64,000 nt of DNA, from positions 82,561-146,560 of the forward strand of contig JASEFX010000003.1 in NCBI GenBank assembly GCA_030018265.1, given 5' to 3'. Made by a program: the position numbers and the translations under genes. Below the pieces are notes generated by a model. That model did not search any database, had not been told where the DNA came from, and saw only the letters and a list, made by a program, of their open reading frames with translations. Shown in pieces: positions 23,206-29,209 of this stretch (within the stretch, counting starts at the first letter, position 1; every line of letters begins with the position of its first letter). This stretch comes from Candidatus Saccharicenans sp. (GTDB lineage Bacteria > Acidobacteriota > Aminicenantia > Aminicenantales > Saccharicenantaceae).

Positions 23206-24906
23206 TCAGTTTCTGGATAGGTTAAAGAACCCGGATAAAAAACCGGAAAGGGCGGCAGAAGACCTTGTCCCGGCATTTACCGGAATCACCCGGCTGAAAT
23301 TACTTTCACGTCCGAGACTGTCTACGGCCGTAACCGCATAATAAAAAACCGCCTCGCTGCCCAGAAGCACATCGATAAATCGTGTGGCGGCCACCGGAGA
23401 CTGATTAATTTTTTCAAAACCCAGGTAGGCACTGGAACTCCGGTAAACGTTATACCCGGCAGCTCCTGGAACTTCTCTCCAGAAAAGTTCGACAGCCTTC
23501 AGATGATTAAAAATTGAGGCGTAGGTGCCGGTCCTGAAATTAAACTCCGCCGGAGTGCCCGGCCAGCCGGGTTTTATGAGCTGAGCCAGGACCGCCAGAC
23601 CGGAAAGAGAACTCCTGACCGCCTGCCGGTAAAATTCGAAATCAAGAGTGTCAACGGTATCAGTGGTTTTATGGTAGTAAGGGTTTGGCACGCTGGCGTC
23701 CTCAATAAGACACACTGCCGGAATTCCCCTGTCCCAGAAGGAGGCGTGGTCCGAGTAAACAAACGAAGGGTCTATAATTTTTTTCGGTGGAAGCGGTCCA
23801 TAAACCGAGGTCAGCGCGGAGATTTTTTCCACCAGCCAGCCGGAACTCCTGTCGCCTATTATGTCCAGATCTTCAGGCAGCAGGTCCGCGTAGGCAATCA
23901 TATCCAGGTTAATGACCGCGATTATATTTTCTGCCGGATTGAGTTTCTCCTGGACGTAACGCAGACTGCCCACCAGTCCCTGTTCTTCGGCCGAAAACAG
24001 AATGAACCTCACAGTGAAATCGAGCGGCCGACTTATCAGAAGTCTGGCCGCTTCCATCACCGCAGCCGTGCCTGAACCGTTGTCGTCAGCCCCGGGAGCC
24101 AGAGTCCAGCGCTGGTTGGAAGTGGAATCATAATGAGCGCAGATTATAACCACCTGTTCGGGATAAGTCTGGCCGCGGATTTCAGAAATGACATTACGAC
24201 ACAGATAACCGCTGTAAGTAAAATCGTGAAAATTGACGGGAAGCCCCAGGCTTAGAAAATAATTATAAAGATACTGCGCTGCCTGAAGGCAATTATCCGT
24301 CAGAGCATAACGAGTGTTAAAATTCTGCAGGTCTGTGACCTTATTTCTCAAGCTCTCGGCTGAAACTTCTGAAACCAGCTGTTCGTAAGCATCTTCTTTA
24401 AAAAACAGCCAGGTGTATTCCTGCGGCAGGCAGGCGTGAGCAGCCAGCGTTCTCCCCCGCTGCGGAAGAAGCCGCCTTTTTACAGAAACCGGAATTTCCT
24501 CCAGCTCTGAAACTTCTCTGAGAATCAGGAGATAATCATCCCCTTCAAGGAATACCGGTTGAAAACTTCGCTGAAGAAAATCCAGATCCTCGGGTCCGAT
24601 CGCTCTGACCAGAGCATAAAATCGGTCATACCGATAAAAAGCGATTGTTCTGAAAACAAAACCTTTATTTCTGAGCTTTATGATTTCATCGCGACCGAGG
24701 CGCAGCAGATAACTCTGCTCCAGTTCCTGCAGACACTCAATACTTTCCTGCTGCAGAAAATATTCGAGCCAGGGCTGTTGCTTTGGCACCTGCACCAGCC
24801 TCAGTGTCCAGGGTAGCCGGGGAGAAAACGTGCTTAACGAAAAAAATAATAGAGAAGCAAGAAAAATCAGCTGCCCCCTTTTTTCTTTCATACTGAAAAT
24901 TCTCAT
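23206..24906 (-). CDS. M28 family zinc aminopeptidase with C-terminal Fn3-like region, secreted
   Basis: VVIICAHYDSTSN...PGADDNGSGTAAVMEAARLL...FILFSAEEQGLVGSLRYV...YSDHASFWDRGIPAV; signal peptide. Confidence 0.9.
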   Translation of the reverse strand: MRIFSMKEKRGQLIFLASLLFFSLSTFSPRLPWTLRLVQVPKQQPWLEYFLQQESIECLQELEQSYLLRLGRDEIIKLRNKGFVFRTIAFYRYDRFYALVRAIGPEDLDFLQRSFQPVFLEGDDYLLILREVSELEEIPVSVKRRLLPQRGRTLAAHACLPQEYTWLFFKEDAYEQLVSEVSAESLRNKVTDLQNFNTRYALTDNCLQAAQYLYNYFLSLGLPVNFHDFTYSGYLCRNVISEIRGQTYPEQVVIICAHYDSTSNQRWTLAPGADDNGSGTAAVMEAARLLISRPLDFTVRFILFSAEEQGLVGSLRYVQEKLNPAENIIAVINLDMIAYADLLPEDLDIIGDRSSGWLVEKISALTSVYGPLPPKKIIDPSFVYSDHASFWDRGIPAVCLIEDASVPNPYYHKTTDTVDTLDFEFYRQAVRSSLSGLAVLAQLIKPGWPGTPAEFNFRTGTYASIFNHLKAVELFWREVPGAAGYNVYRSSSAYLGFEKINQSPVAATRFIDVLLGSEAVFYYAVTAVDSLGRESNFSRVIPVNAGTRSSAALSGFLSGFFNLSRN

Positions 24907-24967
24907 TTTCCTAATTTATAAAATTCAAAAAGACAATTCAACCTGAGATTGAAAATCGATTGAGATC

Positions 24968-24995
24968 TTGACATCCAGGACATTTTGCTTAAAAT
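24968..24995 (+). promoter_or_regulatory. Predicted sigma70-type promoter of trp leader/trpB2 (TTGACA-16-TAAAAT)
   Basis: TTGACA 24968-24973, TAAAAT 24990-24995; predicted TSS near 25002, just upstream of the leader ORF. Confidence 0.6.
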
Positions 24996-25017
24996 TATAA
25001 CGATTTTCGGTTGTAAG

Positions 25018-25107
25018 ATGAGAGAGAATATTAATTTCGTTAAAAGCCTCCTCCTTACCGTCTCCTCCTCTTCCGCTAATTCCTCCTGGATCTGGTGGGC
25101 GGCTTAG
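25018..25107 (+). CDS. Putative tryptophan-sensing leader peptide upstream of trpB2
   Basis: 29 codons plus stop, below track cut-off: MRENINFVKSLLLTVSSSSANSSWIWWAA*. Three Trp codons in four near the stop; promoter just upstream, trpB-family gene 91 nt downstream. RBS is weak. Confidence 0.7.
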   Translation: MRENINFVKSLLLTVSSSSANSSWIWWAA

Positions 25108-25195
25108 TCCGCCCTGAGTCTGCGTCTATTTACCATACCCAATTAAACAACTTGATTAAGACTTTTGACTCTTCAAATCAAAAAGCCAGGAGGAA
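25080..25195 (+). promoter_or_regulatory. Putative translational attenuator: leader anti-SD (25080-25089) complementary to trpB2 SD (25186-25195), with two intervening hairpins
   Basis: TTCCTCCTGG (25080-25089) is the exact reverse complement of CCAGGAGGAA (25186-25195). Internal hairpins: GGGCGG-CTTAGT-CCGCCC (25097-25114) and TTGATTAAGA...TCTT(CA)AATCAA (25152-25181). Confidence 0.5.
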
Positions 25196-25198
25196 AAA

Positions 25199-26500
25199 AT
25201 GAAAAGATACGATTCGAGAAAAACAAGCTATTTGCCGGAAAACTTTTACAACATCAAGGCTGACCTGCCGGAGCTTCCTCCCCCGCCGCTTAACCCGGCC
25301 ACCGGTCAGCCGCTGCGGCCGGAAGAGCTTGAACCTGTGTTTCCACGCGCTTTTATCCAGCAGGAAATAAGCGCCGAACGCTTCATCCCGATTCCTCCGA
25401 AAGTTCTGGAAATCTTTTCCATCTACCGCCCGACTCCTCTGATTTACGCTTCAGCTCTGAGAAAATACCTGGACACGCCGGCCAGAATTTTTTACAAATA
25501 TGAGGGCGTCGGCCCCGCCGGCAGCCATAAGACCAACACCGCTCTTGTCCAGGCTTACCTGGCCTCACAAGAAGGCACAACAACTCTAACCACCGAGACC
25601 GGAGCCGGCCAGTGGGGGTCAGCTCTTGCTTTCTCCTGCCGACAGTTTGGAATCAACGCCCGGGTATTCATGGTCAGGTCCAGCTACCGGCAGAAACCCG
25701 GTCGACGCATAATGATAGAATTGTTCGGAGCTCAGGTTCTGGAAAGCCCCAGCCCGACCACCGCCTCAGGTCTCCGCTTTTACGAGAAAGACCCGAACCA
25801 TCCGGGAAGCCTGGGAATAGCCATCTCCGAAGCTGTGGAAGCGGCCGTAAGCCAGCCTGAAACTAAATATTCTCTCGGTTCGGTTCTTGACGCCGTCCTC
25901 ATGCACCAGACAGTCATAGGACTTGAAGCCATGAAACAGTGCGAGGAGTTTGGCATCGAGCCAGACCTGGTGGTCGGTTGTGTCGGCGGCGGCTCGAATT
26001 TTGCCGGCCTCAGTTTTCCGTTTCTCGGGAAAAGGCTGAGAGAGAAGAAATCAGGACCCCGCTTCCTGGCGGCTGAACCGGAAGCCTGTCCTTCCATCAC
26101 ACGAGGTGAGTTGAAGTACGACCACGGCGATACTGCCGGATTTACACCGCTTCTTTTCATGCACACGCTCGGAAAGGATTTTGTCCCGCCCGCCATTCAC
26201 GCCGGCGGACTCAGGTATCACGGAATGGCTCCTCTGGTCAGTCATCTGGTGAAGCTCGGACTGGTGGAAGCGAAAGCTTACTCGCAGAAGCAGATCTTTG
26301 CCGCGGCTGAGCTCTTTCTTCGCACTGAAGGCATTCTCCCGGCTCCGGAATCAGCCCACGCCATTGCCGCCGTGATAGATGAAGCACTGGAAGCCAGGAA
26401 GTCCGGGCGGGAAATAAACATTCTTTTCAACCTTTCCGGACACGGCTTTCTCGATATTAACGCCTACGACCGGACGGTGTCAGGAAACGGACATGGTTGA
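25199..26500 (+). CDS. trpB: Tryptophan synthase beta-like protein, TrpB2 type
   Basis: YRPTPLIYASALRKYLDTPARIFYKYEGVGPAGSHKTNTALVQAYLA...LTTETGAGQWGSALAFSCRQFG; long N-terminus and the PLP lysine context typical of TrpB2. No trpA adjacent. Confidence 0.93.
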   Translation: MKRYDSRKTSYLPENFYNIKADLPELPPPPLNPATGQPLRPEELEPVFPRAFIQQEISAERFIPIPPKVLEIFSIYRPTPLIYASALRKYLDTPARIFYKYEGVGPAGSHKTNTALVQAYLASQEGTTTLTTETGAGQWGSALAFSCRQFGINARVFMVRSSYRQKPGRRIMIELFGAQVLESPSPTTASGLRFYEKDPNHPGSLGIAISEAVEAAVSQPETKYSLGSVLDAVLMHQTVIGLEAMKQCEEFGIEPDLVVGCVGGGSNFAGLSFPFLGKRLREKKSGPRFLAAEPEACPSITRGELKYDHGDTAGFTPLLFMHTLGKDFVPPAIHAGGLRYHGMAPLVSHLVKLGLVEAKAYSQKQIFAAAELFLRTEGILPAPESAHAIAAVIDEALEARKSGREINILFNLSGHGFLDINAYDRTVSGNGHG

Positions 26501-26540
26501 GAATGATCGAAAAATCTGCTGAAATCGCCTTCGGTCCTGC

Positions 26541-26577
26541 AAAAAAAGCGGGGAGCAGAGTCTTCCCTGCTCCCCGC
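26541..26577 (-). terminator. Rho-independent terminator (strong for the minus strand, possibly bidirectional)
   Basis: GCGGGGAGCAG (26548-26558) / CTGCTCCCCGC (26567-26577), 11-bp stem, 8-nt loop, flanked by A7 at 26541-26547 (U7 on the minus transcript). Confidence 0.9.
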
Positions 26578-26593
26578 AAAATTCCTTTTTTGC

Positions 26594-27826: not shown

Positions 27827-29209
27827 TCAGACTTCCTCCATCCGGACGGTAAAATGCCGGAGGTACGGCGATTCTCTGACTATTCGCAGGCCCCTGACCT
27901 TATCACGGTTTTTATACAATTCGATTATGGCTTCAGCCACGTATTCGAGGTGGGCAGAAGTGTAAACTCTCCGCGGTATGGATAAACGCACCAGCTCCAG
28001 GCGCGGGAAGATCTCCTTCCCGGTCTTTCTGTCCTTCCTGGCAAACATCACTCCGCCAATTTCCACCGCTCTGATTCCGGCTTCGCGATAAAGGGCCACA
28101 GTCAGAGCCCAGCCTGGATACTGGTGTCTCGGAATATGAGGAAGAAATCGGTCCGCCAGCAGGTAAACGGCATGACCTCCGAACGGTTTGAAGACCGGCA
28201 CTCCAGCCTCGTCCAGAAGCTGTCCGAGATAGGCCACCTGATTTATCCTGTATTCCAGATAGTCCTCTTCCAGAACTTCTTCCAGTCCACGGGCTATAGC
28301 CTCCAGGTCGCGCCCGGCCAGCCCGCCATAAGTCGGGAAGCCCTCGCTGAGTATCAGCAGGTTTTTAAGTTTCTCTGCCAGCTGGTCGTCATCCAGGGTG
28401 ACAAACCCTCCGATGTTGACCAGAGCGTCTTTTTTCGCGCTCATCGTCGCTCCCTGTCCGTAGGAAAAAACTTCCTGGGCGATTTCCAGGATTGACTTGT
28501 TCTCATAGCCCTTCTCCCGGCGCTTGATGAAATAGGCGTTTTCAGCGAAGCGGCACGCATCAAAAAACAGAGGAATCCGGTATTTTTTGCAGACCTGGCT
28601 GACCTCCTTTATATTTTTAACCGAAACCGGCTGTCCTCCCCCGCTGTTGTTGGTTATGGTCATCATCACCAGAGGAATTTTTTCCGGTCCTTTTTTCTCT
28701 ATGAATTTCTTCAACCGGGCGACATCCATGTTCCCTTTGAAAGGATGAATCGAGTCCGGGTCGTAAGCTTCTTCTATCACCAGGTCAACAGCCTGAGCTC
28801 CGCGAACTTCAACGTTCGCCCGGGTGGTGTCGAAATGAATGTTGTTCGGAACGTAATCCCCTTTTTTCACCAGTGCTTCAAAAAGAATCCTCTCGGCCGC
28901 CCGTCCCTGATGGGTGGGGATGACGTGTTTGAAGCAGAAAATGTTTTTGACGGCCGATTCGAAATTAAAAAAGTTCCTGGCGCCGGCGTAGGACTCGTCT
29001 CCGACCATCAGCCCGGCCCACTGATTATCGCTCATGGCTGAGGTGCCCGAGTCAGTGAGCAGGTCGATAAAAACCTTTTCAGCCGGAATGTTAAACACGT
29101 TGTAACCGGCCTGTTTCAGAATATTTTCTCTCTCGCGCCGGTCAGGTAGCTTTACCCTTTCCACCGTCTTAATCCGAAAAGGCTCCACCGGCGGTTTTGC
29201 TTTGCTCAT
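27827..29209 (-). CDS. Tryptophanase / tyrosine phenol-lyase family PLP enzyme
   Basis: LLTDSGTSAMSDNQWAGLMVGDESYAG...IPTHQGRAAERILF...TITNNSGGGQPVS...SYGQGATMSAKKDALVNIGG. Confidence 0.92.
   Translation of the reverse strand: MSKAKPPVEPFRIKTVERVKLPDRRERENILKQAGYNVFNIPAEKVFIDLLTDSGTSAMSDNQWAGLMVGDESYAGARNFFNFESAVKNIFCFKHVIPTHQGRAAERILFEALVKKGDYVPNNIHFDTTRANVEVRGAQAVDLVIEEAYDPDSIHPFKGNMDVARLKKFIEKKGPEKIPLVMMTITNNSGGGQPVSVKNIKEVSQVCKKYRIPLFFDACRFAENAYFIKRREKGYENKSILEIAQEVFSYGQGATMSAKKDALVNIGGFVTLDDDQLAEKLKNLLILSEGFPTYGGLAGRDLEAIARGLEEVLEEDYLEYRINQVAYLGQLLDEAGVPVFKPFGGHAVYLLADRFLPHIPRHQYPGWALTVALYREAGIRAVEIGGVMFARKDRKTGKEIFPRLELVRLSIPRRVYTSAHLEYVAEAIIELYKNRDKVRGLRIVRESPYLRHFTVRMEEV

Follow-up and report, generated by a model that had tools for sequence, protein, structure and literature searches.

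The question raised by this locus is whether a short open reading frame (ORF) that ends in tryptophan codons, located ahead of a stand-alone trpB2, is a leader peptide governing this gene, and in which way it could do so. The locus lies in a 64 kb stretch of DNA (64,000 nucleotides, referred to as the window) from a genome of 2.37 Mb in 105 contigs, 91%-complete, of Candidatus Saccharicenans, which is placed by NCBI in the class Candidatus Aminicenantia. The elements of the locus are the following:

24968 to 24995, forward strand: sigma-70-type promoter formed by TTGACA (24968-24973), a spacer of 16 nt and TAAAAT (24990-24995), detected by consensus scan (11/12) and found in the same place in trpB2 orthologues.
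25018 to 25107, forward strand: leader peptide ORF, MRENINFVKSLLLTVSSSSANSSWIWWAA and a stop, 29 codons from ATG (25018-25020) to TAG (25105-25107) by direct reading and translation; its Trp-codon end is kept in all same-subfamily orthologues.
25087 to 25098, forward strand: sensor codons TGG ATC TGG TGG (Trp-Ile-Trp-Trp), with TGG at 25087, 25093 and 25096, followed by GCG GCT TAG; the form W-x-W-W or x-x-W-W is present in most of the class.
25097 to 25114, forward strand: constant hairpin GGGCGG-CTTAGT-CCGCCC, supported by pairing in the alignment and by the covariance models R1 (built on trpB2 leaders) and R2 (hairpin plus linker).
25199 to 26500, forward strand: stand-alone trpB2, the putative regulated gene, encoding a TrpB-like PLP enzyme of 433 aa by its NCBIfam matches; its ATG at 25199 is separated by 91 nt from the leader TAG.

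We confirmed by direct reading and consensus scan the ORF, its Trp-rich end, the promoter and the 91 nt gap that the original prediction had described, and its assignment of the downstream gene to trpB2 also held, with NCBIfam matches to TIGR01415 (605 bits) and PRK12391 (656 bits), both over the cut-offs. The genes flanking trpB2 on either side are located on the opposite strand, and therefore it is probably transcribed alone. The promoter by itself carries little weight, shuffles of the region yielding about 0.8 such promoter-like sites, so that one site is close to chance level. The leader is the sole short ATG ORF with such a terminal Trp cluster on both strands of the window; dinucleotide shuffles of the window gave a mean of 0.17 ORFs of this type and a maximum of 1, with 1 seen. 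A chance origin within a single window is not negligible, and it is conservation that decides for a real leader, which was taken as such because every examined orthologue of the same trpB2 subfamily has one.

Orthologues of trpB2 were collected in the family, the order and the phylum, and their upstream regions were compared. In the class, 51 of the 51 copies of the same subfamily (24 in the family, 19 elsewhere in the order and 8 outside the order) showed a leader with Trp codons directly followed by a GGGCGG-N6-CCGCC(C/U) hairpin. The common layout consisted of a short ORF, terminal Trp codons, the hairpin and a stop codon in the loop or just after it; the last Trp codon and the hairpin columns were nearly invariant and the other columns drifted. 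This was the comparison that the original prediction had suggested as its check, and the finding it had named as a refutation, orthologous regions devoid of short ORFs with tandem Trp codons, did not appear: the rest of the peptide drifts and the Trp codons before the stop stay. The tandem pair was lost in L013, in which both hairpin arms are also altered and the frame continues beyond the hairpin, with Trp codons kept. It is thus very likely that the element is a real, conserved leader-peptide attenuator, the translation of the leader and its response to amino acid limitation being inferred from sequence. Upstream of TrpB2s more distant than this subfamily the element was mostly missing. Two loci of a different TrpB2 subfamily (L113 and L114) have a leader ending SWWFR before its stop and then a hairpin of the UGGUUCCG/CGGAACCA type with the stop in the loop, that is, the layout of the class leaders in different hairpin letters. 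Also beyond the same subfamily, the hairpin is retained in L132 and L208, where the spacing between the Trp codons is wider.

In the window the hairpin overlaps the last Trp codon and the Ala codons, and the stop codon is within the loop. Pairing was maintained in 294 of 294 cells (100%) in 49 sequences, and compensated stems were GGGGGG/CCCCCC in L013, GGGUGG/CCACCC in L253 and UGGGCU/AGCCCA in L258, with L259 of the same type. The paired hairpin and its compensated variants thus provide one feature required of a ribosome-mediated attenuator, a structure lying over the sensor codons whose folding would be altered by a stalled ribosome. Searches against Rfam gave no match at gathering score in positions 15000-36000 of the window and just an irrelevant minus-strand match at E up to 5 in 24900-25260; in the regions of eight relatives there was no match to the element, and only a cobalamin riboswitch was detected elsewhere. 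The latter (108 bits, L199:2647-2815, minus strand) lies downstream of asnA. A known RNA family (T-box, Trp leader or others) was rejected on the absence of an Rfam match.

The exact hairpin pattern occurred at 60 loci across 85,488 species. Those outside Aminicenantes were read as chance, being mostly inside longer frames, with two possible exceptions, and the presence of the element in other phyla was rejected on that basis. L034 and L065 are exact matches outside Aminicenantes located in short frames. With R2 at E<=1e-4, matches among 396 Acidobacteriota genomes were restricted to this class. No other leader copies were found in the own genome of the window; a second GGGCGG-N6-CCGCCC there (C12) was discarded, as it is the stem of an ordinary inverted repeat without sensor codons. 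Weak covariance matches without a fitting leader or gene (L203, L207, L242, L243, L254-L256, L260 and L263) were likewise attributed to chance.

The original prediction had admitted as its weak point the lack of a strong Shine-Dalgarno (SD) sequence before the leader ATG. Considering only the 58 leaders where promoter and in-frame ATG were measurable, the first in-frame ATG was found 5-12 nt past the -10 box in 53, with a median of 8 nt. This spacing, judged from sequence alone, is of the leaderless-mRNA type and would explain the missing SD in the relatives. The window copy stays an exception: it lacks a good SD, and 22 nt separate the -10 box from its ATG, an outlier among its relatives.

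The leader of trpB2 is not isolated. R1 matched in 70 of 143 genomes of the class, with second copies preceding other genes, and R2 recovered further leaders beyond these. The codons changed with the gene. Taking the 8 codons that end at the hairpin, the mean number of Trp was 2.7 both before trpB2 (n=55) and before trpE (n=3), whose leaders end WSW, WLW or NWWW; aroF leaders (n=6) had means of 3.0 Phe, 2.0 Tyr and 1.0 Trp, asnA leaders (n=12) a mean of 3.6 Asn, and the cysK leader (n=1) 3 Cys. Leaders ending FYFW, FYYW, FRYW and similar stand before aroF (DAHP synthase) and aroB, and apparently a single leader reads there all three aromatic amino acids. The asnA leaders carry Asn runs from NNN to NNNNNN, plus one NANRNMN, and a CSCHCW leader is located upstream of a cysteine synthase of the cysK/cysM type. 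NCBIfam confirmed the downstream gene in nine cases taken as representatives, namely aroF in three, asnA in three, trpE in two and cysteine synthase in one; the remaining genes were assigned by reading-frame resemblance. The individual loci where Phe/Tyr/Trp leaders with this hairpin, or one equivalent to it, precede aroF(-aroB) are L192, L193, L194, L196, L198, L205, L258 and L259; those with Asn-codon leaders and the hairpin before asnA, in several families, are L199, L200, L202, L204, L241, L251, L252, L253, L257, L261, L262 and L264. The leader ACSCHCW before cysteine synthase (L195/L244) is the sole Cys example.

This match between codons and gene bears on the simplest rival explanation, that the Trp cluster is chance or that the hairpin alone is conserved and the Trp codons are incidental to the GGUGGGCGG sequence. 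In its favour, some bases belong both to Trp codons and to the hairpin (TGGGCGG), which in most members has a Trp codon fused to it. Against it, conservation extends to Trp codons beyond the hairpin, the count in the window exceeds that expected by shuffling, and before genes unrelated to tryptophan the codons become Asn, Cys or Phe/Tyr with the hairpin unchanged. Because the codons switch with gene identity, the incidental reading is refuted, and we regard this rival as all but excluded. The trpB2 leader is interpreted instead, by inference from the sequences and without experiment, as one member of a modular family of leader-peptide attenuators in which the hairpin is constant and the codons are matched to the gene. 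The idea of the original prediction, a Trp-codon leader regulating trpB2, was supported, yet the locus is one of a larger family. No description of this leader family in Aminicenantes was found in the literature searched, with most subscription journals outside its scope.

Descriptions of classical attenuators usually deal with one operon at a time, in which leader and terminator evolve jointly. In this family a single module of hairpin and stop codon is kept and the sensor codons are swapped for trpB2, trpE, aroF, asnA and cysK, which makes the family a natural series for separating the sensing part of an attenuator from its switching part. It also renders an amino acid regulon legible from DNA alone in a class whose members are mostly uncultured.

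Regarding the trpB2 leader, the likely reading is ribosome-mediated attenuation of the stand-alone gene, with charged tRNA-Trp as the signal sensed. What the sequences show is the ORF and its conservation, the hairpin, the complementarity to the SD, the match of codons to genes and the non-detection of TrpA and indole-3-glycerol phosphate synthase (IGPS); that the leader is translated, that ribosomes stall on it, which way control runs, that the output is translational and that indole is salvaged are inferences. Leaders of this kind are established to work by stalling at their sensor codons, and the switch of codons with the downstream gene strongly implies it here. Two further features enter at this point:

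25080 to 25089, forward strand: anti-SD TTCCTCCTGG, overlapping two Ser codons and the first Trp codon, a perfect complement over 10 bp of 25186-25195.
25186 to 25195, forward strand: SD of trpB2, CCAGGAGGAA, predicted to be sequestered by the anti-SD.

Transcription would start just upstream of the short leader ORF. With ample Trp-tRNA, the ribosome would pass the Trp-Ile-Trp-Trp codons, stop at the TAG inside the hairpin and depart; the hairpin and, in this genus, the helix between anti-SD and SD would then form, with poor translation of trpB2 as a result. With scarce Trp-tRNA, the ribosome halted on the Trp codons would cover the anti-SD and the 5' arm of the hairpin, the SD would be left free, and the TrpB2 made would convert indole and serine to tryptophan.

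The anti-SD:SD duplex of the window copy was calculated at -19.4 kcal/mol, and the pairing also appeared in RNA folds. Over the genus, pairing of leader and SD exceeded that of shuffles (mean z -2.4, Stouffer -9.7), and each SD paired better with its own leader than swapped SDs did (P 0.004; 0.026 without near-duplicates). In silico, 70% of the ensemble in the genus had the SD paired upstream of the Trp codons, a share that fell to 8% with a ribosome on them, yet masking a stalled ribosome raised the mean unpaired SD only from 0.09 to 0.22. The window copy hardly responded to this masking (from 0.00 to 0.03). The effect is small because further CCUCCUCC tracts upstream and pyrimidines downstream can pair too, above all in the window copy. 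There was little or no excess pairing in 3 of the 16 genus copies (L012, L016 and L017, with z of 0.0, 0.1 and -1.1). Considering all this, a translational output for trpB2 in this genus is predicted, without experiment, as the option that we favour by a narrow margin. Beyond the genus the linker is instead the more usual partner of the SD; z was near 0 both in g3/g4 and in class members outside the order, and -0.7 in the other families of the order. The anti-SD:SD pairing was thus rejected as a class-wide mechanism, being absent or weak outside the genus, and therefore the class-wide output step must differ or vary.

A first rival for the output is transcription attenuation, where the ribosome on the Trp codons would decide whether RNA polymerase terminates at a U-tract of the linker about 20-28 nt past the hairpin. 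The Trp-codon arm UGGUGGG would be the 5' arm, a CCCACCA-like distal arm would precede the U-tract, and the proximal hairpin would pause the polymerase or compete. In support of it, the U-tract is at a near-constant distance (about 20-28 nt) in most trpB2 leaders, and terminator-like arms are seen in L005-L007 (UGGUGGG...CCCACCA-UAUUUUU), L018 (GGUGGGCGG...CCGCCCAUCC-CUUUUUU) and L013 (UGGGGG...CCCCCA-UUUUU); pairing just 5' of the U-tract reached shuffle p<0.1 in 37% of leaders, with 10% expected. However, the best pairing of the whole linker was only weakly above shuffles (mean z -0.57), U-tracts occur in relatives without a clear local hairpin, and the window copy has neither U-tract nor terminator-like site in 24800-25300. 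The asnA leaders have AAU/AAC sensor codons without a distal complement, and several of their linkers are just about 60 nt long. Moreover, the same arm would also be blocked by a ribosome that pauses at the stop codon. As a class-wide mechanism, the terminator armed by Trp codons is partly supported and inapplicable to the asnA leaders; it is kept as a rival that we consider unlikely.

A second rival is Rho-dependent attenuation, in which the C-rich, G-poor linker would be a rut site exposed by ribosomes that terminate and protected by stalled ribosomes coupled to the polymerase. In the class as a whole, C makes up 32% and G 10% of the first 30 nt past the hairpin (34% and 8% when the genus is left out), and the linkers of asnA, aroF, trpE and cysK leaders look alike in composition. 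Nevertheless, a ribosome stalled on the sensor codons leaves the linker uncovered, so that it is not evident in which direction control would run, and the linker is less skewed in the genus (28% C, 13% G). This rival appears very unlikely. Outside the genus, what stays constant is the hairpin, the C-rich, G-poor linker and, in trpB2 leaders, the U-tract, and these would suit intrinsic or Rho-dependent termination, with no decision between them. For the genus, the preferred reading remains the translational one.

A bolder reading is that the class Aminicenantia uses one constant RNA cassette as a plug-in attenuator whose sensor codons set the amino acid (Trp, Phe/Tyr/Trp, Asn or Cys), with an output shared by all targets that is neither terminator switching of the E. 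coli type nor simple SD occlusion. The cassette, within this same joint reading, would be the GGGCGG-N6-CCGCC hairpin, the adjacent stop and the C-rich, G-poor linker, read by micro-ORFs of the leaderless type. We advance it as a proposal that may well fail, the balance being against it.

By comparison with described systems, among the nearest are the trpL-type transcription attenuators of E. coli trp and of the Corynebacterium and Streptomyces trp operons (PMC1262725). They share a short leader, tandem Trp codons near the stop and Trp codons in the 5' arm of a hairpin; unlike them, the window locus showed no 3:4 terminator or 2:3 antiterminator, its target is a stand-alone trpB2 and the constant hairpin is reused with other codons. 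A Rho-independent terminator with U-tract competing with an antiterminator was not found at 24800-25300. The label trpL-type, given in the original prediction, thus holds for the sensing step and fails for the output step, because no terminator/antiterminator of the E. coli type is visible at the window locus and pairing of leader and SD is better supported in the genus. In other Acidobacteriota, three loci (L141, L146 and L151), read by eye, have WWW leader ORFs and a GC-rich terminator with U-tract before trpB2 and have the appearance of classical attenuators; these leaders differ from those of the class, and therefore stand-alone trpB2 acquired Trp-codon leaders of at least two designs.

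As a switch, the leader of this genus resembles rtpLP of B. subtilis, by which anti-TRAP translation is controlled (Chen and Yanofsky 2004, cited in PMC4027176). There too a leader peptide region reportedly governs downstream translation initiation in response to uncharged tRNA-Trp, although the genes are different and no shared sequence is known. The mycobacterial leaderless polycysteine short ORFs (Canestrari et al. 2020, cited in PMC9031893) are similar as sensors, in that a small ORF of the leaderless type, with runs of codons for the sensed amino acid, attenuates the genes behind it; they differ in phylum and, as described there, concern only Cys, and they are not known to have the constant GGGCGG hairpin. 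In the actinobacterial LEU element upstream of leuA (PMC1262725), consecutive sensor codons form a base stem with the SD of the gene behind them, and the switch of this genus resembles it in that respect, but the element has a pseudoknot inside the stem and a different sequence, and reported mutations speak against simple leader-peptide control.

Neither TrpA nor IGPS was found in the 91%-complete own genome, and both are present in only 5 of 34 genomes of the family. The role inferred for TrpB2, salvage of tryptophan from indole and serine, fits these absences. The apparent control by tryptophan supply gives a regulatory role to a stand-alone TrpB2 in bacteria without detected TrpA, and it fits the recovery of tryptophan from indole. 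A possible source of this indole lies nearby, outside the switch:

27830 to 29209, reverse strand: lyase of the tryptophanase / tyrosine phenol-lyase type, convergent with trpB2 (NCBIfam PRK13238, 701 bits).

This lyase is below the equivalog cut-offs for TnaA and Tpl. It may supply indole as substrate of TrpB2, or its product may be phenol. Finally, a GC-rich inverted repeat with A/T-rich flanks was observed at 26540-26590 of the window, between trpB2 and the next, convergent gene, and it is likely the terminator shared by both.
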